Origin: Sulfurimonas sp. hsl 1-7 | Lineage (GTDB): Bacteria; Campylobacterota; Campylobacteria; Campylobacterales; Sulfurimonadaceae | Length of the DNA: 64,000 nt | Reading direction: 5' to 3' | NCBI RefSeq assembly: GCF_030577135.1 | Contig: NZ_JAUIRR010000002.1 | Span: forward strand, 186,001-250,000 | Translations under genes and position numbers: made by a program | Notes under the pieces: model-generated | The model's input: only the letters and a program-made list of their open reading frames with translations | What the model was told of the DNA's origin: nothing | The model's database searches: none | In this document: positions 2,395-15,052 of the stretch, in pieces | Layout of the letters: each line of letters begins with the position of its first letter | Position numbering within the stretch: position 1 is the stretch's first letter

Positions 2395-2419
2395 AGATTT
2401 GAGAGAATTTAGACTTTTA

Positions 2420-2460
2420 TAATTATGAATACTTTTTGGAACATGTGTAACTCATAATTA
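2420..2460. repeat. 9-bp inverted repeat downstream of miaA
   Basis: TAATTATGA at 2420-2428 is repeated inverted as TCATAATTA at 2452-2460 with a 23-base loop. There is no U-tract, so it is not a convincing terminator. The rest of the gap between miaA and the next gene is AT-rich with no ORF of note. Confidence 0.4.
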
Positions 2461-2540
2461 CCAATATACTCCAAAATCTAAGCATTCTAAGACAAGTGAG
2501 TTATTTGACAACTTATAATATTTTAAAATCAACAACCATG

Positions 2541-2564
2541 ATATAGTCATTGACTTGACTATAT
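2541..2564. repeat. Perfect 9-bp hairpin near convergent gene ends
   Basis: ATATAGTCA (2541-2549) and TGACTATAT (2556-2564) form a perfect stem around a six-base loop. It lies 21 bases beyond the stop of the minus-strand gene that ends at 2586. No run of U follows on either strand, so it could be a weak terminator, an RNA-stability hairpin or an operator. Confidence 0.45.
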
Positions 2565-2585
2565 TACAGTTTTAAGATATTTGAA

Positions 2586-2987
2586 TTATTGTAATATTCT
2601 TCTTACTTGTTCACAACTTTTATTTGGATATTTTTTCTTTAATGTAAATGGAGTTAACCCCAGATCTTTACATTTTTTAATTTCTTTATTTTCAACTATA
2701 TCTAAATCTAACCAACCATCATACTCTTTAACAGTTAAAACATTTATTCTTAATAACCTTGTAATCGCAACTTCATAATATGAGTCCAACCATCTTTGTA
2801 TTTCATAGGGATTTTTTTGTCCTAAATCATACATTTCATAAATAAAGGAAGTTTTATGTTTATTTCCTTGATATTGTGGAAAATATTTCAATAAAGAAGC
2901 TCTATTTACATTTTTATTCATTTCCAATGCTGTTTCAGCAGCAAAAAGACTTAAACTTAATCCAATTATTAATAAAATTTTTTTCAC
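2586..2987 (-). CDS. Small exported protein of unknown function
   Basis: The 133-residue product starts with a clear Sec signal peptide: MKK, then a hydrophobic run ending AAE at about residue 17. The mature part is polar, Lys- and Tyr-rich, and holds two Cys (in KKCKDLG and KSCEQV) that could form a disulfide. I do not recognise a family. A purine-rich ribosome site, AAAAGGAAAAG, precedes the ATG. The start faces the first TGACA-N5-TGTCA operator at 3073, so that site could also affect this gene. Confidence 0.65.
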   Translation of the reverse strand: MKKILLIIGLSLSLFAAETALEMNKNVNRASLLKYFPQYQGNKHKTSFIYEMYDLGQKNPYEIQRWLDSYYEVAITRLLRINVLTVKEYDGWLDLDIVENKEIKKCKDLGLTPFTLKKKYPNKSCEQVRRILQ

Positions 2988-3072
2988 ACTTTTCCTTTTT
3001 CAGTGTACTATTAAATAATCAACCTTAAAACAGCTTAAAAAATCTTAATAAAATACTAAGCATTTTATTCTA

Positions 3073-3087
3073 TGACATAACTTGTCA
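3073..3087. promoter_or_regulatory. Operator candidate 1: TGACA-N5-TGTCA
   Basis: The sequence reads TGACA TAACT TGTCA, a perfect palindrome with five central bases, so the half-sites are one helical turn apart. Forty bases separate it from the ATG of the lipoprotein gene at 3128. A candidate -10, AATACT, starts 12 bases after it. The same arrangement occurs upstream of the gene at 3851. Confidence 0.6.
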
Positions 3088-3127
3088 CAATACCATGAAA
3101 TACTTCTTGAATCAAAAAGGAGTACAC

Positions 3128-3580
3128 ATGAAAAACAACAGCTATATTAGTTTTGAGGAAAGAACACAGATGATACCATTTAGAGCAAGATTATTCATAT
3201 GGGTGTGTTTTTTCGCTTTAGTAATCTTTACTGCTTGTGATACGCCTTTGGTTCAAAGTGTAAAAGAGACGAAATATGCTAAAGGAATTACTATAGCAGA
3301 ATTATTCGAAGATTCTGATTATTGTAGTTCAGTGGATTGGTTAGAGGTAGAATACAGCACTAATAAAAAATTAGTAAAGGTAGAGTGTACTCTTCTAGAG
3401 GACAGTATATTTTATAAAGACTTTGATGTTTTAGTCTATCATTTTGAAAAGTTCAAGAATCATGCAGCAATTTATAATTCATATTATCAAAATGATAAAG
3501 AACAGATAGTAGAGAGATCTGGATGGGAAGCCAAATATTTATTAGATTCTTCTATGGAAGATATTCTAAAGAACAAATAA
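3128..3580 (+). CDS. Small lipoprotein, paralogue of the one at 4265
   Basis: The product is a predicted lipoprotein of unknown function with lipobox FTAC at about residues 33-36. Its mature part is closely similar to the product at 4265-4669: both share KGITIAELFEDSD, two later Cys and LVYHFEK/LLYHFEK. The start at 3128 is chosen because AAGGAG lies seven bases upstream; a longer frame from 3095 has no ribosome site. Residues 1-12 resemble the N-terminus of the RDD protein at 3851, and the signal-peptide part begins only at Met14, suggesting a fusion by deletion after duplication. Confidence 0.72.
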   Translation: MKNNSYISFEERTQMIPFRARLFIWVCFFALVIFTACDTPLVQSVKETKYAKGITIAELFEDSDYCSSVDWLEVEYSTNKKLVKVECTLLEDSIFYKDFDVLVYHFEKFKNHAAIYNSYYQNDKEQIVERSGWEAKYLLDSSMEDILKNK

Positions 3581-3795
3581 TTAAAAAAAAACGCTGTTGC
3601 TAATTACGCAATAACAATAAACTTATATACTCATATTGCTTTAATTAAATCACTTTTATAAAACCTTGAGCATTTCTAAACGATAGAATATAATTATTTA
3701 TTGTTTCATTGTATTTTTTTATAAAACTAGATAATATTTTGTTTCGTTAATGAAAAACAGCATTTTAAATTAGTGAAACTAACACTTTGTCTTTT

Positions 3796-3810
3796 TGACA
3801 CAATATGTCA
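3796..3810. promoter_or_regulatory. Operator candidate 2: TGACA-N5-TGTCA
   Basis: The sequence reads TGACA CAATA TGTCA, a perfect palindrome. As at 3073, exactly 40 bases separate it from the next ATG (3851), and a candidate -10, AATAAT, starts 12 bases after it. Preceded by T, its left half also reads TTGACA, but the spacing to the -10 is too short for a normal -35 role. The rest of the 270-base gap 3581-3850 is AT-rich with no ORF. Confidence 0.62.
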
Positions 3811-3850
3811 CTATTATTTGAAATAATGTTTCAAACACAAAGGAGTAGAA

Positions 3851-4264
3851 ATGGAAAACGAAAAGTTTATTGGTTTTGGAAAAAGATTAGGTGCATTTAT
3901 GATAGATGCAATTATTATCTTTGTAGTGTGGCAGTTCTTAATGGGTTTACTATTTGGTTTAGGCCTTAGGGGTGAGGAAACAATTGGTAAAGTAGTTGTG
4001 ATAGTTTATTCATTAATTTATTTTAGTTACTTCATATTTTTAGAAAGTTCTAAAAAACAGGCAACGTTAGGAAAAAGAATATTCAAGATAAAAGTTGTAA
4101 ATCATGAAGGTGAAAGACTTTCTATTGCGAATTCTGCAGGAAGAAATTTTGGTCGAATTTTGTCGGGACTAATTTTAGGAATAGGCTATTTAATGGTACT
4201 TTTTACACCAAAGAAGCAAGCTTTACATGATAAACTTGCTAAAACATATGTAGTAGGGAAATAA
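3851..4264 (+). CDS. RDD-family membrane protein
   Basis: The 137-residue protein fits the RDD family: an N-terminal GFGKRLGAFMIDAII segment with the Arg and Asp that name the family, two hydrophobic helices, then KKQATLGKRIFKIKVV, a third helix and FTPKKQALHDKLAKTYVV at the C-terminus. RDD proteins are small inner-membrane proteins, some linked to ion transport; no substrate can be assigned here. AAAGGAG precedes the ATG. The stop codon directly abuts the ATG of the lipoprotein at 4265, so the two form one unit behind operator 2. Confidence 0.85.
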   Translation: MENEKFIGFGKRLGAFMIDAIIIFVVWQFLMGLLFGLGLRGEETIGKVVVIVYSLIYFSYFIFLESSKKQATLGKRIFKIKVVNHEGERLSIANSAGRNFGRILSGLILGIGYLMVLFTPKKQALHDKLAKTYVVGK

Positions 4265-4669
4265 ATGAAATTATTTGTGATTAAAATTTTTGTATTAGTT
4301 GGTTTGTTTAGTGTATTTACAGGATGTGATACTGCCTTGGTTTCTGAAGTAAAACAAACAAAGTATGGTAAAGGAATTACTATTGCAGAATTATTTGAAG
4401 ATTCTGATTTTTGTGATTCCGTTGATTGGTCAGAAGTAGAATATGAAAAGGGTCAAAAATTAGTATTGATGGAGTGTCAACTTCCTGAAGAAGGTATAGC
4501 ATACAAAGGTTTTGATACCTTACTATATCACTTTGAAAAAACAAAAAACGATGTAGACGTTTATAACTCATTTTACGAAAACGACAAAGAAGAATTAATA
4601 GAGAGGTCGGCGTGGGAAGCAAACTTGTTATTACGTGCTTCTATGGAATATATATTAAAGAATAGATGA
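4265..4669 (+). CDS. Small lipoprotein, paralogue of the one at 3128
   Basis: The 134-residue product has a short signal peptide ending in lipobox FTGC (Cys21) and a mature domain closely matching the protein at 3128-3580. The conserved core is KGITIAELFEDSD-C-SVDW, a second region with Cys, and a C-terminal helix ending ILKN. I recognise no named family. Its ATG follows the RDD stop codon without a gap. Two conserved Cys beyond the lipid-anchored one could pair. Location in the periplasm, attached to a membrane, is inferred from the lipobox. Confidence 0.72.
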   Translation: MKLFVIKIFVLVGLFSVFTGCDTALVSEVKQTKYGKGITIAELFEDSDFCDSVDWSEVEYEKGQKLVLMECQLPEEGIAYKGFDTLLYHFEKTKNDVDVYNSFYENDKEELIERSAWEANLLLRASMEYILKNR

Positions 4670-4781
4670 TAGAATAAAAAATACCGTTAATGAAAAAACT
4701 ATATTGGGTGATGATTAAACTTTTATCATAAGTTTAAAGCATCAACCAATATTACACAAGTTATATAATACTAAAGTGTGA

Positions 4782-5200
4782 TTATTTTTTATGCCAACTA
4801 ATATATGGAGACTGGTTTCCCGTAGGTGTTGTCATTGATGTACATTTATATTCAACATCTTCTATTTTTAAAGTACCACTGGTACCAGCACCTCCTTGAA
4901 TCACCCTAGAAAACTCAGCAGCTGTAATACATCCAGCAAGGTTCTCTCCCATCTCATTTTTAATTCTTTCTTCTGTAAAATAATCCTTCATATTAGTATC
5001 ATTGATTTTAGCATCCATAAAACTTTTTGACCAAATTGCTGGTAATATAGTACGATTTAGTGTTCCAATAATTCCATTACATTGTTCTTCTTTCCATGTA
5101 GAATAACTTACTTTACCTACACATTGCTTATTATACTTGTGCACGTTTTTATTAAAGTCAACCCTGAAACAATGATTTTATAATACCTTTTATTCTTCAT
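4782..5200 (-). pseudogene. Degraded pseudopilin, paralogue of the gene at 62840
   Basis: The open frame 5144-4782 starts only at GTG and encodes 120 residues. Its segment IIGTLNRT...IWSKS matches FIGTLNRT...MWSES of the pseudopilin at 62840-63268. The prepilin leader and hydrophobic helix needed for assembly are absent. A strong ribosome site, AGGAG, lies before an ATG at 5200 in another frame; that frame runs 27 codons (MKNKRYYKIIVSG...) and stops at 5117, overlapping the downstream frame. This looks like a frameshift or recombination near the 5' end. A functional protein with a replaced N-terminus is less likely. Confidence 0.6.
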
Positions 5201-5310
5201 TTCAACTCCTATAAAATCATAATATATAACTAAAAAAATGAATATTTATAATGATATAGAAATTTTTCATATTCATTTTATATTATTTTTGACAGTATAA
5301 AAAAAGCTTT

Positions 5311-5325
5311 TGATACATCATGTCA
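5311..5325. promoter_or_regulatory. Operator candidate 3: TGATA-N5-TGTCA
   Basis: The sequence reads TGATA CATCA TGTCA, one mismatch from the palindrome at 3073 and 3796. It lies 84 bases before the TTG start of the CHASE2 gene that opens the caspase operon. An AAATAT stretch about 12 bases downstream could be the -10. The rest of the 5201-5409 gap is AT-rich with no ORF; a separate TTTGACAGTATAA stretch lies at 5288-5300. Confidence 0.5.
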
Positions 5326-5409
5326 CACAGCTAAGAGAAAATATGACAAAAGAGCTATATAAGTAAAATAACAATAGAATGCTTTTTAATAAAAAAGAAT
5401 AGGTATAGT

Positions 5410-6738
5410 TTGATAAAAGAATCATTGATAAAAGCTTCGATAAGTGCACTGTTAACATTTATAATTTATCAATTTTATAATGTAGAGTTTATTCGTGCAA
5501 CGATAGAAGATGCGGCCTTCGATACTACAAGTTGGTTCGCTCTTTCTAAGACATCTACAGATACAAATCAAAGCAATGTGTTTATTTTAATGCTCGATGA
5601 TAAGTATTTGAATTCAAAAAAACTTTTAGATGACAACAATGAAACAAACTATGGATATATTCTCCCGCGCGAATATTTAGCAGAGATAATCTCAAATCTT
5701 GATCTTTTGGTTGAAGATATTGATGAAGAAAATTATCCTTCTGCTCTTTTTTTAGATTACGATCTTTCATATTTAAGTGATCCCCACAACAAAACAGCAA
5801 GTGCCGGGGATATAGAACTTTTAGAAGTTTTAAAACATCCTCGACCATACATTATTTACCTACCAATCACATCGAACTATAACTATATATATTATTCAGC
5901 CGACAAAGAGATTCAAAAACTTATTGATATTGGTAAGATCAAATTTATCTCTGTGGGCTTAACGTCAGCAAGTGACAATGTAAGTAGAAGATATTACCCT
6001 TATGAGCTTTATAGAGATAGAGAAAATAAAGAGCAAAAGTTTATGAATGTCGCCATAGAACTTTATGTAGATCAAAATCATTTAAAGAAAAATATCTTTG
6101 ATACTTTTTCACAAACAGGTTCAGCACTTGTTGAGAATAGAATTATTTTTAAAGACTTTAATGTGTTGGAAGATACTAATGATTATACGACTTATCAGAG
6201 TAATTGGAAAAAACTTTCTGCAATGTCAGCCAATTATCCGCTTGATACAATTTATGAAGATGACTTAAAAAATGCTGTTTTTTTTGTTGGAGCTGCGCAT
6301 AGTGCCAGTGATGACACTTTTGAGATAGATGCTTATTCCAGGCAAGTTAGTGGGATAGAGATGCATGCTAACGCACTTATGACACTTAATTATCTCCAAG
6401 GAAAGCTCAAACGGTTACCTCTTTACATAAGTAGTTTAATTGTATTTTTTGTTATCCTATTCGTAGACTTGATGCTATCACTACTCTATGAAAAACTGAT
6501 GCAACTAAAAGAGTCTATACAATCACAAAAAGTGAAAAAATGTATGACATTCTTTATCCACGATGAAAAAGACGATTTTCATGAAATGTGGTTAGTTGTA
6601 ATCTCTTTAGGGATAATGTTCCTCATCTCATACAACCTATTGTTATCGACACAGCACTATTGGTTTAACTGGATGATACCAGCCTTAATGTATCCACCAT
6701 ATCTTGTTTTGATGGGATTTAAAAAATTTATTAAATAA
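5410..6738 (+). CDS. CHASE2-domain membrane sensor without an output domain
   Basis: The product is predicted to sense an extracytoplasmic signal at the inner membrane. After one N-terminal helix (about residues 8-24) comes a periplasmic CHASE2 domain (about 25-335) with an LMLDDKYL strand and the family's C-terminal signature FFVGAAHSASD...SGIEMHANAL. Three more membrane helices follow (about 337-360, 395-413, 418-438). CHASE2 proteins usually continue into a kinase, cyclase or GGDEF domain; this one ends after the last helix (GFKKFIK). The start is a TTG with a weak AGGTA site. It is the first gene of a tight four-gene unit. Confidence 0.85.
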   Translation: MIKESLIKASISALLTFIIYQFYNVEFIRATIEDAAFDTTSWFALSKTSTDTNQSNVFILMLDDKYLNSKKLLDDNNETNYGYILPREYLAEIISNLDLLVEDIDEENYPSALFLDYDLSYLSDPHNKTASAGDIELLEVLKHPRPYIIYLPITSNYNYIYYSADKEIQKLIDIGKIKFISVGLTSASDNVSRRYYPYELYRDRENKEQKFMNVAIELYVDQNHLKKNIFDTFSQTGSALVENRIIFKDFNVLEDTNDYTTYQSNWKKLSAMSANYPLDTIYEDDLKNAVFFVGAAHSASDDTFEIDAYSRQVSGIEMHANALMTLNYLQGKLKRLPLYISSLIVFFVILFVDLMLSLLYEKLMQLKESIQSQKVKKCMTFFIHDEKDDFHEMWLVVISLGIMFLISYNLLLSTQHYWFNWMIPALMYPPYLVLMGFKKFIK

Positions 6739-6750
6739 AAAGGAATGTAA

Positions 6751-7365
6751 ATGTTGAAAATAGTTACTTGTATCTGTTTAGTGAATTCTCTCTTCGCTGT
6801 TGAAATGACAGTAAAAAAAGATGATGTAATCGTAAGTATTAATACTCAAAAAACTACGTTAAAAAAAGGGCAAAAACAAGAGCTGACAGAGGGAAGCACA
6901 ATCTGTTTTGTTGACGGTAAAGGAAAGGTTGTTATACCTGCATTAAAAAAGCAGCTTAAAAAACCGGGAAGATGTTTAATGGTACCACTCTCTGAAGGGA
7001 CTGTAACAAGTTACATGGCAGATATGAAACATAAAGCAACAATAGCATTATGGGATTCGAGTGAAAGTGTTCGTCATGGTACAGGAACTAAAGGACAAAC
7101 AGAATTTAATAATGATGGGGCATTTATTTTAACTCCAGAACAAAAAGAGTTAGTTATCTATGGTAAAGAGTTTGGACCTCTTCCTGTTGTTGTACACCTT
7201 TTAGATGCTAATGGAGGAGAAGTGATGAGCTTTGAGAATGAAGAGAGTGAAACAACCTTAGTTCGTATAGGAAAGCAAAATCTAAAAACTGGTATGACGG
7301 TAGAAGTTTATAATGGATTTGAAGAATTAATGTTGAGTAAAAAAGTTATCGTCAAGGGATTGTAA
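6751..7365 (+). CDS. Secreted protein of unknown function in the caspase operon
   Basis: The 204-residue protein has a Sec signal peptide ending near NSLFA (residue 16). The first half is beta-rich with a repeated Lys/Gly pattern and two Cys (TICFVDG, GRCLMVP) that may pair; this half faintly resembles FecR-like periplasmic domains, which I cannot confirm. The second half has LVIYGKEFGPLPVVVHLLD and further strands. AAAAGGAATG precedes the ATG, 12 bases after the CHASE2 stop. Its stop overlaps the caspase gene start by one base (TAATG). It probably works in the periplasm with its neighbours. Confidence 0.7.
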   Translation: MLKIVTCICLVNSLFAVEMTVKKDDVIVSINTQKTTLKKGQKQELTEGSTICFVDGKGKVVIPALKKQLKKPGRCLMVPLSEGTVTSYMADMKHKATIALWDSSESVRHGTGTKGQTEFNNDGAFILTPEQKELVIYGKEFGPLPVVVHLLDANGGEVMSFENEESETTLVRIGKQNLKTGMTVEVYNGFEELMLSKKVIVKGL

Positions 7366-10300
7366 TGTTCAAGAATAAAATTATTTACATTCTAATAGTA
7401 AGTTTCAGTATAGTTTTTAGTGGATGCACGGCTAAAGATTTGGCATTGGTTTTTGTGCCTGGCATGACTTATGACAAAGCTAAGAATCTTTTTCCTGAAA
7501 AGCAAAATGATAGTGAGTTTTTAACACCAATAGAAGACCAATTTTCAACTAAGTTAAGAGCAAATTATTTTAAAAAAAGTCACTGGACTGGTTATTTTAT
7601 AGCTGAGAATAAAGTTTTTTATTTTATGGTAAAAGTTCAAAATTCTAACCTAAAAAACAAACCTGTGAGAATAGTGATTTTTGATGAAAATGGTCATCAA
7701 GTTAACAATTATTATGATGCAGTCATGGAGTCCTTTAACGGAGTATTATTTGTTTTAGCACCTACAAAAAAATGGGTCAATGAACACAAAAATACAGATA
7801 TCTATACCTTCTCATTTTGGAGAAGTGATATAAATCATAATATATTAACTGGAGATGTAGATTTAATAAAGTCTAATACTGAAAAAGCCAACAGCGTTGG
7901 CTTTTTTAATTTAGTACGTTCGGATGAATATAAGCTGCCTACATCCACATTTGAGAATCCATATAGCAGTTCATTAGGTGAACAACAACTAACAACATAT
8001 GAAAAAAACAATGATTCCAAAATTTATCTTAGAACTGATAACAAAGCCCATTCTGACATGATTAATAATCTAATAGTAACAAAAGATAAAAAACATTTTA
8101 TTACCTCTAGCAAAGATAAAACAATTCGTGTATGGGATAGCAATACTGCTACAAGTCAAAGAAAGATCATAGGACAAATTGGAAAAAGCATGATAGGAAA
8201 AATCAATAGCATTGCAGTAAGCCCAAATCAAAAACTTTTATGTTCTACTGGTTATTTTGATGGTCCTACAAGAAGAGATGTTACTAAAATCCGAATTTTT
8301 GATTTTAAATCAGGAAAACTTTTACATACTCTAAAAGCACATCAAAATTCTGTTTCAGACATGCAGTTTAGCAAGAATGGGAAATATCTGTACTCTATAG
8401 GACAAGATTATACTTTAAAAATTTGGGATACAAAAACTTTTAAACTCATTGATAATATATCATTTTACAATGGTGTTAAAGTAGATCCAACTACCTTACA
8501 ATTAAGAGAGATAGAAAATTCTAAGTTACATCAAATAGTTATAACATATGGTAAAGAAGTTGCTATTTATGATCTAGACACAAAAAAGTTTTCTAACAAA
8601 TATATTAATAATTATCCAATACATGGCTTAGCAGTAAATGGTTTAGATATTGCAATCTCTGGTTATGGTGAAGAAGAAAGAGCCAATCCAAAAGGAAAAA
8701 GAAATATTGTAATATTGGATTATGGATTACATCTATTAGCATCATTAGTATATAAAGGTTATCAAGTACCAACAAAATTAGTTTATAATGAAAAAGGAAA
8801 TAAATTAGCTGTATTGGCATTTGATAAAATTGTAATTTATAATAGGTCAAAAGGTTATCATTTAGAATATGAATATACTAATAAAGATTTTGCTCGTTAT
8901 ATCAATACAATAATATTTTTAACTAATAAAAAACTACTTTTTACAGACATATATAATAAGATTGCTGTTTTAGATATAAATACCAAAAAAGTAATACAAA
9001 AAAATCTTGGAGGTTTTAAAGAACTTAAAGTAAGTTTTCAAGGACATACTATTGCCTGGAATAAATTTTCTAATAATAAAAAGAAAAGAAAATTCTTAAA
9101 AAGAAGAGCATTAGATATATTGAATGGAAAATTTGTTACTGGTATCCCTTCTGAAACAGAGTTACCAAGAAGTAAAGGTAATCTCAGTTTAAAAACTAAT
9201 GCAATGCATAATGAGCTCTTTATAATGAAAAATGATAAAGTCATTAAAACAATTATTCAAGACAGATTTATGGGGATAGAACATGGAGTTTTTGGATTTT
9301 ATAAACACTATATCCTTTCTGCGGGTCATGATGTTATCAGTATATATAGTTTAAATGGTGACCTAATAACTCGTTTAGTCGGACATAATGGAATAATTTA
9401 TCAATTGGCCCTAGACCAAGATCGTTTAGTAAGTATTGCAACAGATCAAAGTATTAAGGTTTGGGATCTTTCAAAAATAGGATCACAATCCCTACTTGAA
9501 CCTTTAGTTAGTATACATTTAAACACTTCGTTAGACGAATGGATAATGTGGACTCCAGAAGGTTTTTTTAATTCCTCAGAGCATGGACTACAAGATATTG
9601 GTTTTCATTTGAATAAAGGAATAGATAAAGAAGCACAATGGGTTTCTATGGATAAATTATATGATCATTTTTTTAGACCAGATTTAGTAAAAATGAAATT
9701 AGAAGGAAAAGATATTAGTAAATATACTGGTGGTCTAACATTTAAAGATGTACTTAAAAGTCCACCTCCGACTGTGAGCATTGAAGAAGTTGCTAAAAAT
9801 GGTATAGATAAGAGAAAAAGAACTCTAAAACTTTCTTTCAAGGTTCAAGAAACAGATGCTGGTGGAATTGGTATTATACGTGTTTACCAAGAAGGAAAAC
9901 TTGTTAAAACTATTGGTGAAGGAAAAATAAACCGTGCTATAGCAAATGCAGATGAAAAGTTAAGAGAAGAAAAATTAAATGAACTTTCCAAGCAAAGACA
10001 AAAAGAGTATTTAGCTCAACTGGAAACTAGTGTATCAAAGTCTGTAAACGGTACATTGAATGACTCTGAATTGATAGGTGATGTAGAGATAGAAGAACTA
10101 AACAATAAAGCTGGTGAATACACAATAACACTTCCTATAAAAGCTGGAAAAAACAACATTGCGGTTGAAGCTTTTAACAAAACAAATACTGTCGCAAGTT
10201 ATAGAGCCAGCATAGATGTAGACGCTAAACTAAAAGAACGTCAACCTACAATATATGTACTTGCAGCAGGGGTTAATCAATTTGAGCAGAACAATGTAAG

Positions 10301-10955
10301 CACATTAAAATATTCAGAAAATGATGCAAAAAGCATAGCTAAAGAGATCAAAAATGCTACAAAATATAAAACAGAAGTAACTCTTTTAACAGGTAAAGAA
10401 GTTACAAAAGAAAATATTTCTACAGCTATAGAAAATATAAAAAAGAAAGCTCATCTTGAAGATAAAATCGTGTTTTATATCTCTACACATGGTAAATCTG
10501 CTCGTGGACGATTATATTTGGTACCGCAAAACAATAAAAAACTAAAAAATTGGCTAAACTTTGAAGATCTTTTTAAAGAGATACAGTCTATTTCTGCACT
10601 TGATCAGATATTTATTATTGATGCTTGTGAATCCGGTCAAGCGAGTGAAATCATGTCCGCTGTTTATGATGCTAAAGCTTCTGTTCTTGCTAAACAATCT
10701 GGAGTACATGTTTTAATGGCTACTACTAAAGGGACTTTTGCGTTTGAAAGTGCAGATAAAAATGCCAAGCATGGAGTTTTTACAAACAATATTTTAAAAG
10801 CTTTAAATGATAAGCATACAGATAAAAATAGAGATAAGCAAATATCTATTATAGAGTTATCGGATGCCTTAAAAGATCCAAAATATAGTGTAGAACATCA
10901 ATTTCCAATCATTAGAAATGTTGGTGAAGATACAAAAGTGAAACAATTGAGATAA
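7365..10955 (+). CDS. WD40-repeat caspase-like lipoprotein
   Basis: This 1196-residue lipoprotein (lipobox FSGC, Cys21) combines a beta-propeller with a C-terminal peptidase C14 domain. WD40-like blades are clear near residues 232-262 (DKTIRVWD), 275-365 (KIWDTKT) and 655-706 (IKVWDLS). A WIMWTPEGFFNSS segment and an RPDLVKMKLEG stretch follow, a linker typical of bacterial WD40-caspase proteins. Two Ig-like strand-rich stretches precede the caspase fold (about 985-1190). The catalytic pair is intact: His1042 in YISTHGKS and Cys1088 in IIDACESG. An acidic-ligand pocket or Lys/Arg specificity cannot be read from sequence. The lipid anchor places the peptidase outside the cytoplasm, an unusual site for a caspase homologue. 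Confidence 0.88.
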   Translation: MFKNKIIYILIVSFSIVFSGCTAKDLALVFVPGMTYDKAKNLFPEKQNDSEFLTPIEDQFSTKLRANYFKKSHWTGYFIAENKVFYFMVKVQNSNLKNKPVRIVIFDENGHQVNNYYDAVMESFNGVLFVLAPTKKWVNEHKNTDIYTFSFWRSDINHNILTGDVDLIKSNTEKANSVGFFNLVRSDEYKLPTSTFENPYSSSLGEQQLTTYEKNNDSKIYLRTDNKAHSDMINNLIVTKDKKHFITSSKDKTIRVWDSNTATSQRKIIGQIGKSMIGKINSIAVSPNQKLLCSTGYFDGPTRRDVTKIRIFDFKSGKLLHTLKAHQNSVSDMQFSKNGKYLYSIGQDYTLKIWDTKTFKLIDNISFYNGVKVDPTTLQLREIENSKLHQIVITYGKEVAIYDLDTKKFSNKYINNYPIHGLAVNGLDIAISGYGEEERANPKGKRNIVILDYGLHLLASLVYKGYQVPTKLVYNEKGNKLAVLAFDKIVIYNRSKGYHLEYEYTNKDFARYINTIIFLTNKKLLFTDIYNKIAVLDINTKKVIQKNLGGFKELKVSFQGHTIAWNKFSNNKKKRKFLKRRALDILNGKFVTGIPSETELPRSKGNLSLKTNAMHNELFIMKNDKVIKTIIQDRFMGIEHGVFGFYKHYILSAGHDVISIYSLNGDLITRLVGHNGIIYQLALDQDRLVSIATDQSIKVWDLSKIGSQSLLEPLVSIHLNTSLDEWIMWTPEGFFNSSEHGLQDIGFHLNKGIDKEAQWVSMDKLYDHFFRPDLVKMKLEGKDISKYTGGLTFKDVLKSPPPTVSIEEVAKNGIDKRKRTLKLSFKVQETDAGGIGIIRVYQEGKLVKTIGEGKINRAIANADEKLREEKLNELSKQRQKEYLAQLETSVSKSVNGTLNDSELIGDVEIEELNNKAGEYTITLPIKAGKNNIAVEAFNKTNTVASYRASIDVDAKLKERQPTIYVLAAGVNQFEQNNVSTLKYSENDAKSIAKEIKNATKYKTEVTLLTGKEVTKENISTAIENIKKKAHLEDKIVFYISTHGKSARGRLYLVPQNNKKLKNWLNFEDLFKEIQSISALDQIFIIDACESGQASEIMSAVYDAKASVLAKQSGVHVLMATTKGTFAFESADKNAKHGVFTNNILKALNDKHTDKNRDKQISIIELSDALKDPKYSVEHQFPIIRNVGEDTKVKQLR

Positions 10956-10976
10956 CAATTTAGGAGAAGTTATAAA

Positions 10977-11621
10977 ATGGAAAAAGTAGGAAAAATACAT
11001 TTTTATGCGAGCGGATGGACTGCATATTCTGCTGTAGATATCTACTATGATGGGCAAAGATATATGATAGACTTAGGCTTATTTGGAGAAGACTCCAAAT
11101 ATGGCAAAAGTGTTGAAGAACTTGCCAGCTATTTACGACGTTATTATGCAAAAGATGAAAAGTTTGAGATTAAAAAAATAGATCTTGATCTCTCACCATA
11201 TCATGATAAAATTGCTGCTCAAGAAGCTGAAAAGTTTCAAAAACAAGAACAAAAACAGCGTGAACGTGAAGAACTTGATAGAAAAAAACAACAGGACAAA
11301 GTTGAAGATAATCAAAAATATCAAGACGAATTGAATGATATACGAGAAGAAAGAGCTGCACACAAGGAAAAGATAAAAAATCTTCAAGGCAGTTTATTTA
11401 TGAAGATAGTAAAGTTCTATCTATTATCAGTTGTAAGTTTAGTAAAAAATCTTTTTATGGCATTGCTAAATAGCCTATATGGTGCTGTGTCAACTTCATC
11501 TCGATTTAATAAATTAGTAAATCGCTATTATTTTGCAGCTATTAAAGATTCTCTTATAGTATTGACTCCGATAGTTGCTATTCTTTATATAATAGAATTT
11601 ATTCAACAAACATTTTCTTAA
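10977..11621 (+). CDS. Coiled-coil membrane protein closing the caspase operon
   Basis: The 214-residue product begins without a signal peptide. A small alpha/beta head (residues 1-75; GKIHFYASGWTAYSAVDIYYDG) is followed by a very charged, Gln/Lys/Glu-rich helix likely to be a coiled coil (about 78-140), then two hydrophobic helices (about 143-170 and 190-210). I recognise no family. AGGAG lies 10 bases before the ATG, 21 bases after the caspase stop. The layout suggests a cytoplasmic head and stalk anchored at the inner membrane, possibly the cytoplasmic partner of the periplasmic proteins in this unit; that role is an inference. Confidence 0.65.
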   Translation: MEKVGKIHFYASGWTAYSAVDIYYDGQRYMIDLGLFGEDSKYGKSVEELASYLRRYYAKDEKFEIKKIDLDLSPYHDKIAAQEAEKFQKQEQKQREREELDRKKQQDKVEDNQKYQDELNDIREERAAHKEKIKNLQGSLFMKIVKFYLLSVVSLVKNLFMALLNSLYGAVSTSSRFNKLVNRYYFAAIKDSLIVLTPIVAILYIIEFIQQTFS

Positions 11622-11666
11622 ATCAACTGTTCTGAAGATTTCTCATGCTTTATTAAAAAATTGTGT

Positions 11667-12278
11667 TTAACTTTTATAAATGACTTGAAAACTCTCGACT
11701 ATTATTCCTGAAATGGAATGTTCTATTTCTATAAGTTCAAAATCGGTTATTTGAGAAATGCAGGAAGCAGCTTGTTGGGAAATCAAGATCTCATGTTCAC
11801 CTGCGAGATCTTCCCCAAGTTTACTTGCGATATTAACAGGTGTTCCAAAAAAATCATTGTTATCGAGTAAAAGAATTTCTCCATAATCAATGCCAATGGA
11901 AATCTTTATATCATGTTCGTCTGGTTTCGATATATTTGCTGCCTTTAACTGAGTATTTAAAGCGATCGAAACACTAATAGCATCTATAGTTTCATCAAAA
12001 ACTGCAAATACATTATCTGCTTCCATTTTTACAACTACACCGTTACTACTATTTATAAGTTCAATAGCTTGTGTCTGCATCTCTTGAATCATGGCGAGAT
12101 AGTGTACTGTTCCATATTGTTTAGTGATTCTACTAAAACCTGACATATCGATTACCAAAACAGCTTTTTTTTGCCCAAACTTTTTCCATATCTCATGTTC
12201 TAAAGCTTTTCGATCCTCTTCATATAAGGCACTAGAATATTTAACTAACAATCTATGTAGTTCATGTTTATCGTTCAT
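11667..12278 (-). CDS. Stand-alone class III adenylate/guanylate cyclase domain protein
   Basis: The 203-residue soluble protein is essentially one cyclase homology domain. Both metal-binding Asp residues are present (DMSGF near residue 44, KMEADNVFAVFD near 110). The Lys in VVVKMEAD and the Asp in NNDFFG match positions that favour ATP over GTP in class III enzymes. In the transition-state motif N-x-x-S-R the Arg is replaced by Lys (VNIASKLGED). A short helical region with no recognised domain precedes it. It is convergent with the caspase operon, 45 bases from its end. Activity is plausible but the Arg-to-Lys change lowers certainty. Confidence 0.82.
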   Translation of the reverse strand: MNDKHELHRLLVKYSSALYEEDRKALEHEIWKKFGQKKAVLVIDMSGFSRITKQYGTVHYLAMIQEMQTQAIELINSSNGVVVKMEADNVFAVFDETIDAISVSIALNTQLKAANISKPDEHDIKISIGIDYGEILLLDNNDFFGTPVNIASKLGEDLAGEHEILISQQAASCISQITDFELIEIEHSISGIIVESFQVIYKS

Positions 12279-12284
12279 TTATCT

Positions 12285-12298
12285 CACTTTATAAAGTG
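12285..12298. promoter_or_regulatory. Perfect 14-bp palindrome at the cyclase start
   Basis: CACTTTATAAAGTG is fully self-complementary and ends six bases before the cyclase ATG. It overlaps the expected ribosome-binding region and contains a TATAA core, so it could be an operator, a -10 region, or both. Confidence 0.5.
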
Positions 12299-12392
12299 TA
12301 GTGTTCTATAAAATTTATTTCATATCTTAATTAAATCCCCCTTAATAGACTTTGATATTAGGACTACAAGAGTGCCTTTAAAGATGATTCTG

Positions 12393-12398
12393 TATAAT
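12393..12398 (+). promoter_or_regulatory. -10 element of the WYL regulator gene
   Basis: TATAAT preceded by TG fits an extended -10. It is 49 bases before the ATG at 12448 and 115 bases from the divergent cyclase start. Confidence 0.5.
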
Positions 12399-12447
12399 TG
12401 TTAAACTACTAATCTAAGATAATGTCAATAATTGAATGGAGTTAGAA

Positions 12448-13374
12448 ATGGCAACATCACAACATGATAAATTCTTTGCAAGATCAATTTTACTTTTACA
12501 AGAGCTTTCTGAGTGTGGCAGCAAAAACATAAGTGAATTAGCAGAGATGTTTGGAGTGAATAAACGTACAATCTATAGAGATATAGAGAGACTTCATTTC
12601 TTTCCCATAGAGCTTGAAAAGGGAAAAGGTATTGTACGTATAGCTGAAGGCTTTGCACTGGAAAATCCAAAACTACAGGATTTGGAACTTTTAGTTGCTG
12701 AACTTGCTTTTAGTTCTATTCGTAATATTGATCACAATACAGACAGGCATCTATCTTCAATCCGTGCAAAAATTTCAAATCCTATGTTCTTTACTCCTTA
12801 CGATATTAAACCAGAATCATATGAAGAAATAAATATGGATTCTGAACTCTCAAATAAAATTGAAGATGCTATCACTAAAAGAAATGTCTCTAAAGTAAAA
12901 AACAATGAGCAGTTTTCAGTCGTTGAACCATATAAAATGGTTGCTTTTGATGGATTTTGGTACTTGTTAGCAAAAGATAGAGCAGATAATAAAATCAAAA
13001 CCTATATGTTAGCAAATATGCAAGACTTTCATGCGACAACAGAAGTATTTGACACTACTTATACAGATGTAGATAAACTACTTCAAAATGTTCATAGTGC
13101 TTGGTTTGATGATGGAAACAGTTTTGAAGTTCAAGTAAAAATTAAACCAGAGGTTTCACAATTTTTTGAACTAAAAAAACATCTTTCATCTCAAAAAGTT
13201 TTAAAAAAATATGATGATGGTTCTTTACTTGTTTCATTTGAGGTAAGCCATGATGAAGATGTAGATAATCTGATCAAAGCATGGCTACCTTATATAGAAA
13301 TTATTTCCCCTAAACGCTTACGCAATAAACTGGTAGAAGAGTTAGAAAACTATATCGCACAAATCAAGGAATAA
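12448..13374 (+). CDS. WYL-domain transcriptional regulator
   Basis: The product has an N-terminal helix-turn-helix (about residues 10-60; MFGVNKRTIYRDIERL) of the DeoR/HTH_11 kind followed by a WYL-type ligand-sensing region (about 130-200; EPYKMVAFDGFWYLLAKD) and a C-terminal extension ending ISPKRLRNKLVEELENY. WYL regulators often sense nucleic-acid or nucleotide ligands and frequently sit beside defence or stress genes. The start at 12448 is chosen because GGAG lies seven bases upstream; an ATG at 12436 has no such site. It is divergent from the cyclase and is a candidate regulator of the block; no DNA target is known. Confidence 0.85.
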   Translation: MATSQHDKFFARSILLLQELSECGSKNISELAEMFGVNKRTIYRDIERLHFFPIELEKGKGIVRIAEGFALENPKLQDLELLVAELAFSSIRNIDHNTDRHLSSIRAKISNPMFFTPYDIKPESYEEINMDSELSNKIEDAITKRNVSKVKNNEQFSVVEPYKMVAFDGFWYLLAKDRADNKIKTYMLANMQDFHATTEVFDTTYTDVDKLLQNVHSAWFDDGNSFEVQVKIKPEVSQFFELKKHLSSQKVLKKYDDGSLLVSFEVSHDEDVDNLIKAWLPYIEIISPKRLRNKLVEELENYIAQIKE

Positions 13375-13378
13375 GACC

Positions 13379-13915
13379 ATGAAAATAATAGTTTTTTTGA
13401 TTATATTCTTAGCTATGACTTTAGATGCTGATATATATAATTTAGATAGTAATGTAGATAATGAGTATTTAGTCAAACAACTAGGACAAAATAAACAAAT
13501 TAAATTAAAAAAAAGATATGAAAATTTAAAATTTACGAATTTAATAGATGATAGTCATAGGTCAGAAACAAGGACTAAAAATAATTGTAAGTATACAGAC
13601 ATAAAAAACAACCATATCACTTTTTTATTTTATGAAAATAAATTAAAAGTTTTGGAGAATGCTAATAGTAATAACAATAACATTTTAATATGTTTCTCAA
13701 GCTATGAAGAATATTTATTGTTAAAACATGAAATTCAAATAGCATTTTACAAAGAACTCAAGAATATTAAAGATCCTTATTTTATGAAAAAAAGAGAAGA
13801 AGTTGCAAAAGAGATAAACATAACAGAAAAAGAGATTATGAAACCGTACAGCATGAAAAAAGATACGACAAAATTACACGAAGATATCAACTTTTTATAT
13901 AAGCAACTTCAATAA
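13379..13915 (+). CDS. Small exported protein downstream of the WYL regulator
   Basis: The 178-residue product begins with a hydrophobic signal sequence ending LDA at about residue 17. The mature part is very rich in Lys, Asn and Glu, largely helical towards the C-terminus, with two Cys (NNCKYTD, LICFSSY). No family is recognised. It starts four bases after the regulator stop, so it is probably co-transcribed. Composition is AT-rich like the rest of the block. Confidence 0.55.
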   Translation: MKIIVFLIIFLAMTLDADIYNLDSNVDNEYLVKQLGQNKQIKLKKRYENLKFTNLIDDSHRSETRTKNNCKYTDIKNNHITFLFYENKLKVLENANSNNNNILICFSSYEEYLLLKHEIQIAFYKELKNIKDPYFMKKREEVAKEINITEKEIMKPYSMKKDTTKLHEDINFLYKQLQ

Positions 13916-13956
13916 AATTTTATGCAGCTTTTGATTCTATTCTTCAATATGAACAT

Positions 13957-14097
13957 TTAGTCGAAAATATATCCATTAGCTAAAATATCGCAAAAGCTTG
14001 CTATATAAGCCATATCTTTCAGCAGTTTAGCCTCCCTGTTTTCATAATATTCTCTATAAATCAATTCTTTGATATTTTTAATAGTATGGAATGTTCC
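13957..14097 (-). pseudogene. Possible gene remnant in the gap before aguB
   Basis: A 46-codon open stretch reads HTIKNIKELIYREYYENREAK... and ends DILANGYIFD before a stop. The composition looks protein-like, but there is no ATG near its beginning (only an internal TTG and a late ATG) and no ribosome site. It may be the 3' end of a lost gene at the right edge of the accessory block. The rest of 13916-14163 shows nothing definable. Confidence 0.25.
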
Positions 14098-14163
14098 TTA
14101 TAAGCTAGACTGTTACTAAAACAGTTCTTTTTGGAACGTGACTTCTACTGAGAGGTCCGTCCT

Positions 14164-15009
14164 TTATTTACAGAGTTTTGAATAAGCAGCAGGTCTACGA
14201 TCACGAATCAGTCCCCAGTACTCTCTTTGTTTTGCATTTTCTGTAAAATCAAATTCACCGTAGATGATCTCCTCTTTGTCACGGCTCGCTTCAGCTATCT
14301 TCTCACCCGTATAATCAGTTATAAACGATGAACCGTAAAAAGTAAGCTCACAGCTTTCACCTTTTTCTGTACCTATTCTGTTTGCAGCAACTACAGGGAT
14401 AGTATTTGTCGCAGCATGCCCCATCTGAACACGTTGCCAATGTTCTTTAGAATCTAAGTGGATCTCAGGCTCGCTTCCAATCGCAGTCGGATAGAAAATA
14501 ATATCTGCACCCATAAGTGTAAGAGCGCGTGCAGTTTCACAAAACCACTGATCCCAGCAGATCCCCACGCCCACTTTTCCAAACTCTGTCTCATACACTT
14601 TAAAGCCTGTATCACCCGGAGTGAAATAGAACTTTTCTTCATATCCAGGACCGTCTGGAATATGTGTTTTACGGTAGTTATCCATCACTGTTCCGTCCGT
14701 ATCTATGGCAACTAAAGAGTTGAAGTATTTATCTTCTGTTTTTTCAAAATAGCTCACCAAGATCACAACATGATGCTCACGTGCAAGTGGAATAAACTCT
14801 GCAATTACCGGATTATTTTCCAGTGGCTGTGCCCAAGAAAAATATTTTTTATCCATATCTTTACAAAAATAGTACCCCTCAAAAAGCTCCGGTAAAAGTA
14901 TAATATTTGCACCGTTATTTGCCGCTTCTTTGACAAACTCCTTTGCCTTGGCAACATTTTTACTTTTATCTTCACCCATTTGCATCTGAATCGCTGCAAC
15001 TTTTACCAT
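14164..15009 (-). CDS. aguB: N-carbamoylputrescine amidase
   Basis: This nitrilase-superfamily enzyme converts N-carbamoylputrescine to putrescine, carbon dioxide and ammonia. The catalytic triad is visible: Glu in LLPELFEGYYFC, Lys in YRKTHIPDG and Cys in GVGICWDQWF. The segment THIPDGPGYEEKFYFTPGD is typical of AguB rather than other amidases. The start at MVKVAAIQ (15009) is chosen because GGGGAA lies upstream; a longer frame from 15027 has no advantage. The partner agmatine deiminase gene lies at 48548. Confidence 0.92.
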   Translation of the reverse strand: MVKVAAIQMQMGEDKSKNVAKAKEFVKEAANNGANIILLPELFEGYYFCKDMDKKYFSWAQPLENNPVIAEFIPLAREHHVVILVSYFEKTEDKYFNSLVAIDTDGTVMDNYRKTHIPDGPGYEEKFYFTPGDTGFKVYETEFGKVGVGICWDQWFCETARALTLMGADIIFYPTAIGSEPEIHLDSKEHWQRVQMGHAATNTIPVVAANRIGTEKGESCELTFYGSSFITDYTGEKIAEASRDKEEIIYGEFDFTENAKQREYWGLIRDRRPAAYSKLCK

Positions 15010-15052
15010 GGTATTCCCCCACTTCAAATAATTGAGGAAATTTTACTACATT

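Follow-up and report, generated by a model that had tools for sequence, protein, structure and literature searches.

A CHASE2 protein, a secreted beta-protein and a caspase- or CHAT-type protease with predicted export: a recurring three-gene unit and putative signalling module outside the inner membrane

We analysed a 64,000-nucleotide stretch of DNA from Sulfurimonas sp. hsl 1-7 (the window), in which an AT-rich island carries genes for a stand-alone CHASE2 membrane protein (gene 1), a secreted protein (gene 2) and a predicted WD40-caspase lipoprotein (gene 3; Table 1). Judged from comparison of related loci, CHASE2 protein, gene 2 protein and protease are a recurring unit of three genes, not four. 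We lean slightly towards the view that genes 1-3 (5410-10955) constitute an island-borne three-component signalling module working outside the inner membrane. The caspase and CHAT proteases of bacteria are known chiefly as effectors acting in the cytoplasm. If our reading is true, the caspase-type switch would be extended to the envelope, with the protease located outside the inner membrane next to its own receptor, and the widespread CHASE2 domain would gain a possible non-cytoplasmic output. With three genes the system is compact and directly testable.

Table 1. Positions of the genes, island features and gene 3 protein segments (window coordinates, or residues where indicated).
Feature	Position	Strand	Basis or remark
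miaA, left flank of island	1486-2394
AT-rich island	2395..14163	.	between miaA and CN_hydrolase gene, which abut tail to tail in G433 and G454
RDD membrane protein	3851..4264	+	51% identical homologue accompanies gene 4 homologue in G473
Gene 1, stand-alone CHASE2 membrane protein, 442 aa	5410..6738	+	Pfam CHASE2, hydrophobic segments, alignment
Gene 2 (g2), secreted protein, 204 aa	6751..7365	+	ORF, relatives' alignment, AlphaFold2, Deinococcus relatives by profile
Gene 3, predicted lipoprotein, degenerate WD40 propeller and C14 caspase domain	7365..10955	+	profile matches, alignment
Gene 3, propeller region, degenerate WD40	residues about 220-725
Gene 3, 'WTPEGFF..RPDLV' segment	residues 726-800
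Gene 3, Ig-like region with helical insert	residues 801-955
Gene 3, C14 caspase domain	residues 956-1196		dyad H1042/C1088
Gene 4, cytoplasmic-type coiled coil, two C-terminal membrane helices	10977..11621	+	ORF, hydrophobic segments
Class III nucleotide cyclase-like gene, convergent with the operon	11667..12278	-	Guanylate_cyc 7.3e-8; PADLOC PycC 2.6e-9
HTH-WYL regulator	12436..13374	+	60% identical homologue ~1.8 kb from CHASE2 gene of G388
CN_hydrolase gene, right flank of island	14164-15027

An earlier note on this DNA had described four tightly packed genes, and the four co-directional open reading frames are indeed separated by only 12, -1 and 21 nt; scans for promoters and terminators gave results no better than shuffled sequences. 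Its description of gene 4 also holds, the protein showing an apparent coiled coil together with hydrophobic helices at about residues 138-156 and 191-209. The view of all four genes as one unit had to be given up. Genes 1-3 recur together in the relatives, while gene 4 is absent from every CHASE2 relative locus. Among 130 genomes of the genus, the window genome included, gene 4 has a single relative (G473, 31% identical), which stands behind a homologue of the window RDD gene on a short contig with neither CHASE2 nor caspase. A four-gene unit is thus rejected for lack of conservation of gene 4, which we treat as a passenger of the island.

Gene 1, previously read as a CHASE2 sensor, matches PF05226 well above the curated Pfam cut-off (E 1.2e-10; 41.9 bits versus 26.3). 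An N-terminal membrane helix, placed by alignment to relatives, precedes an extracytoplasmic CHASE2 domain of ~300 residues, and C-terminal membrane helices follow (hydrophobic segments at 340-358 and 390-408). CHASE2 is the sole domain found, the protein ends just past the last membrane helix, and an output domain as in CHASE2 cyclases or kinases is missing. The short relatives of gene 1, with 384-475 residues, likewise have their C-terminus at the membrane and leave no room for a cytoplasmic output domain; CHASE2 open frames across the order mostly comprise 600-750 residues, and the one inspected is a cyclase. Since the short proteins end at the membrane, no signal transfer to the cytoplasm via an attached enzyme is expected.

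For gene 2, a signal peptide was seen by inspection. No Pfam family was matched at E<=0.1, PF04773 (FecR) included, and the protein resembles a FecR-like plus an Ig-like arrangement, the FecR likeness being one of motif and architecture only. Two cysteines, C52 and C75, are invariant in the alignment of relatives. The AlphaFold2 model is mostly beta, with two predicted beta domains at a mean pLDDT of 74. A fold search returned no PDB match at E<=0.001; the best matches, complement-type beta domains above this E value, are uninformative.

Gene 3 carries a signal sequence and a lipobox (FSG-C21; IVFSGC21), from which lipidation is predicted, and its homologues in G388 and G057 likewise have a lipobox. 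It matches WD40 repeats (E 5e-22) and Peptidase_C14 (E 5e-17, residues 966-1154, 62.7 bits versus a cut-off of 21.4); its blades are degenerate, with only two stretches passing the curated WD40 model on their own. Residues ~22-219 form an extra N-terminal domain that is missing in relatives. The catalytic dyad is intact, with H1042 in STHG and C1088 in DACESG, and a check for its loss in close homologues found it conserved in G388, G057 and the Deinococcus NW-56 protein. The WD40-caspase lipoprotein with intact His1042 and Cys1088 claimed earlier is therefore confirmed, with a lipid anchor that is predicted. In metacaspases, the Asp of a D-x-C motif points to cleavage after Arg or Lys, and by this analogy the gene 3 caspase, which has such an Asp, probably cleaves after Arg or Lys. 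Structure prediction of the caspase region from a two-sequence alignment gave a fitting strand-helix order at a mean pLDDT of 52, too poor for a fold search. No other C14 gene was found in the window genome. The caspase domain matches NCBIfam NF047832 (3.5e-20) and PADLOC PDLC02987 (2.4e-11), its score with the EACC1-associated model NF047832 being 72.4 bits and thus below the cut-off of 140.

Between the window and G388, the closest relative locus, the caspase domain is 73% and the propeller 33% identical. The propeller thus diverges faster than the protease, as would be expected if it tracks a changing target or ligand. Such divergence would also suit an outward weapon, in which the lipoprotein protease, putatively surface-exposed or released, would cut proteins of phage, neighbour or prey, with the CHASE2 protein and gene 2 serving for control or retention. 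The residues following the lipobox Cys, which are T, G and V and not D, fit outer-membrane sorting by the E. coli rule and point in the same direction; a secretion partner gene was, however, not recognised at the loci, and we regard this reading as very unlikely.

A CHASE2 profile detected five relatives besides the window protein in 397 genomes of the phylum and three more, two of them distant, in 135 genomes of the genus, so that nine short-CHASE2 loci were compared in Campylobacterota (window, G388, G057, G055, G118, G472, G075, G541 and G525). These loci share ancestry, so the adjacency counts that follow cannot be treated as independent. Gene 2 or a likely relative adjoins the CHASE2 gene, within ~0.8 kb, in all nine, with the versions in G541 and G525 matching the gene 2 profile only marginally. 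An adjacent clan-CD protease with predicted export is found at six of the seven loci that can be judged. At the window, G388 and G057 it is a WD40-caspase lipoprotein (whole-protein identity to gene 3 of 48% in G388 and 35% in G057), and at G075, G541 and G525 a TPR-CHAT protein (PF12770, E 1.3e-57, 3.8e-54 and 1.7e-52, respectively), predicted to be a lipoprotein in G075. CHAT we take to be a caspase-like domain of the clan shared with caspase. The seventh locus, G118, has CHASE2 and gene 2, with a protease absent from the contig; the contigs of G055 and G472 break off within the gene that follows gene 2 and encodes an exported product (TPR-like in G055), so that these two loci were not judgeable. 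The sensor beside a protease of caspase type that the earlier note had proposed is thereby found again in relatives, export being predicted for the protease. Since matches to C14 and to CHAT are rare in the order (22 and 12 of 249 genomes, respectively), we estimate chance adjacency of a protease at ~1 in 1000 per locus.

The same counts bear on the reading that there is no functional module, the genes merely sharing a variable island and the caspase acting alone. The island does contain unrelated RDD, gene 4 and cyclase genes, and WD40-caspase and CHAT proteins with predicted export also occur without CHASE2, as does the exported caspase of G053, which stands alone. However, the constant adjacency of CHASE2 and gene 2, the near-constant adjacency of the protease at complete loci, and the re-formation of the arrangement with CHAT and in other phyla all argue against it, and we consider it the least probable of the readings set out here. 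As a further observation, the caspase C-terminus is present a second time in G388, as an 83-residue copy that lies between genes 2 and 3 and is likely a relic of duplication. A search of genome contigs with the CHASE2 alignment recovered three loci, identical to those of G388, G118 and G055, and a search with the caspase protein alone gave no match. Carriage of close relatives by phages or plasmids was considered and rejected, the CHASE2 protein having no relatives in the phages, viral contigs and plasmids searched.

Equivalent trios were found beyond the phylum, on two Deinococcus plasmids, one with a caspase and one with CHAT, and on an Azospirillum plasmid with a CHAT lipoprotein. On the D. 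taeanensis plasmid, a stand-alone CHASE2 protein and a gene 2-like secreted protein adjoin a TPR-CHAT protein without a clear signal peptide, while on the plasmid of Deinococcus NW-56 the corresponding pair is next to a WD40-caspase whose dyad is intact and which apparently has a signal peptide. Both Deinococcus gene 2 proteins display a G-x-x-[VI]-C ... C pattern; their similarity to the gene 2 profile is weak (hmmsearch 3.7e-4 and 4.7e-3 in 424 ORFs; hhalign 1.8e-7). In Azospirillum sp. B510, three consecutive genes encode a CHAT lipoprotein, a CHASE2 protein and, with a FecR-like appearance, a secreted protein that shows no more than a resemblance to gene 2. Together with the Campylobacterota loci, these cases link a like receptor pair to one or the other protease in at least two phyla. 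Beside most of the CHAT or caspase plasmid loci inspected (Tolypothrix, Stanieria, Oscillatoria, A. oryzae, Pseudoroseomonas, Rhizobium and two of Runella) a CHASE2 annotation was absent, and the trio is therefore one arrangement among several. A contig of G116 (C23, L145; GC 62-68%), probably a contaminant of its genome, carries, one after another, genes for TPR-CHAT, stand-alone CHASE2, a secreted protein, CHAT and WD40-caspase, with export predicted for CHAT and caspase; its secreted protein was rejected as a gene 2 relative, having no significant similarity.

The island comprises 11.8 kb with a GC content of 29.5%, versus 36.6% in the right flank, and no integrase was recognised in it. Given the empty sites (Table 1) and the restriction of close CHASE2 homologues to 3 of 135 genomes of the genus, the unit has been gained, or lost, sporadically. 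Either side of the RDD gene, positions 3095-3580 and 4265-4669 encode paralogous small proteins, apparently lipoproteins, without a Pfam match. No Pycsar effector was identified next to the cyclase-like gene.

The vicinity of the relative loci varies. In G057 (L032, 13212-12163), a gene for a CARF-PDDEXK (Card1-like) nuclease overlaps the CHASE2 start by 8 nt (PADLOC E 1.5e-151), which could tie cyclic-nucleotide signalling to the module, and HEC-06 and IetA-like genes are nearby. In G075 (L053), genes for vWA, protein kinase, ankyrin, TrkA_N and DUF4062-AAA proteins lie downstream of CHASE2-gene 2, while the opposite side has genes resembling Vsr and DNA cytosine methylase. In G541 the gene after CHAT encodes an outer-membrane barrel, and on a G014 contig (C47, L161) a caspase lipoprotein gene converges on genes for a CHASE2-cyclase and a FecR-like protein.

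We propose a model in which the CHASE2 protein, which lacks the usual cyclase or kinase output, would be anchored in the inner membrane with its sensor domain facing the periplasm. Gene 2 would provide a small periplasmic beta-protein as co-receptor or adaptor, and both together would sense an envelope signal and control the WD40-caspase lipoprotein, which may be held by its lipid on the periplasmic or outer-membrane side. Upon such a signal the caspase would be released or activated and cut envelope proteins, in what is most likely the damage or arrest response of a conflict system. Export is predicted for gene 2 as well as for the protease, and the CHASE2 protein has no output domain; the simplest reading is a complex or relay on the outer side of the inner membrane.

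The island, the patchy distribution and some of the neighbours suggest a defence or cell-death role, to which the swappable protease also points; we regard this role as plausible and hold it with less confidence than the module itself. Defence genes are present at only some loci, namely G057 and G075. PADLOC recognised no complete anti-phage system in the four genes: gene 3 matched a caspase model and a repeat model, gene 4 gave a weak CorA-like match, and genes 1 and 2 had no match. The main rival to a defence role is envelope or biofilm regulation, in which CHASE2 and gene 2 would correspond to known FecR-CHASE2 pairs controlling biofilm or gene expression and the protease, responding to environmental conditions, would trim specific envelope proteins without killing. 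Operons of FecR-LysM and CHASE2 histidine kinase genes have been tied to biofilm control in Burkholderia (PMC5192318), and the G014 and G541 neighbourhoods fit such regulation, but sporadic island distribution and caspase/CHAT interchange would be unusual for housekeeping, and the CARF nuclease, HEC-06 and IetA-like genes of G057 and the Vsr-like/DNA methylase-like and kinase genes of G075 also speak against it, so that we think it rather unlikely. Extending the proposed module further, the trio might represent a broadly distributed, undescribed extracytoplasmic surveillance, with CHASE2 receptor, secreted adaptor and interchangeable caspase or CHAT protease detecting envelope attack and killing or arresting the cell from the periplasmic side; this we offer tentatively, as a doubtful proposition.

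Among known systems, the two-gene EACC1-caspase conflict systems (Kaur et al. 2020, PMC7159879) are similar in that a membrane partner gene adjoins a gene for a caspase-superfamily peptidase and that membrane-side sensing is proposed to activate proteolysis. They differ in that the EACC1 partner has a single membrane helix in place of CHASE2, and the caspase is N-terminal there, whereas it forms the C-terminal domain of a predicted exported lipoprotein in the window. No EACC1 gene adjoins the window caspase by family match, its neighbours being CHASE2, gene 2 and gene 4. Although models NF047832 and PDLC02987 match the caspase domain, the former below its cut-off, no other component of those systems was matched. 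In Trichodesmium, a CHASE2 receptor is likewise linked with a caspase domain, there fused in one protein with the caspase predicted to be cytoplasmic (PMC3501461), as opposed to separate proteins with the caspase predicted outside. The same paper reports one N-terminal helix, maybe a signal peptide, in 46 of 398 single-domain metacaspases, and the earlier statement that bacterial caspases are mostly cytoplasmic is thus roughly right, with possibly exported homologues already noted. In the BiofilmReg operons of FecR/LysM and CHASE2 histidine kinase genes (PMC5192318), a secreted protein is also paired with a CHASE2 sensor; there, CHASE2 has a cytoplasmic kinase and the operon no protease, in contrast to the window. 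CHAT replaces caspase in G075, G541, G525 and Azospirillum, recalling TPR-CHAT proteases such as Craspase (PMC9729208) and the CHAT genes of cyanobacterial plasmids. Craspase is RNA-guided, whereas the CHAT proteins of the trio are predicted to be exported and no CRISPR effector gene was recognised beside them.

We rate the trio as a variant of caspase-type bacterial conflict or signalling systems previously undescribed in the literature searched, which covered few subscription journals; within this scope no publication joined CHASE2 and the CHAT domain, and those on CHASE2 and caspase, in the passages covered, describe fusions or cytoplasmic systems. In G004 (L154, 6356-7180), a CHAT gene with predicted export is followed by a gene for a secreted DUF928 protein (3.6e-12). 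Pairing of CHAT and DUF928 occurs in cyanobacteria.
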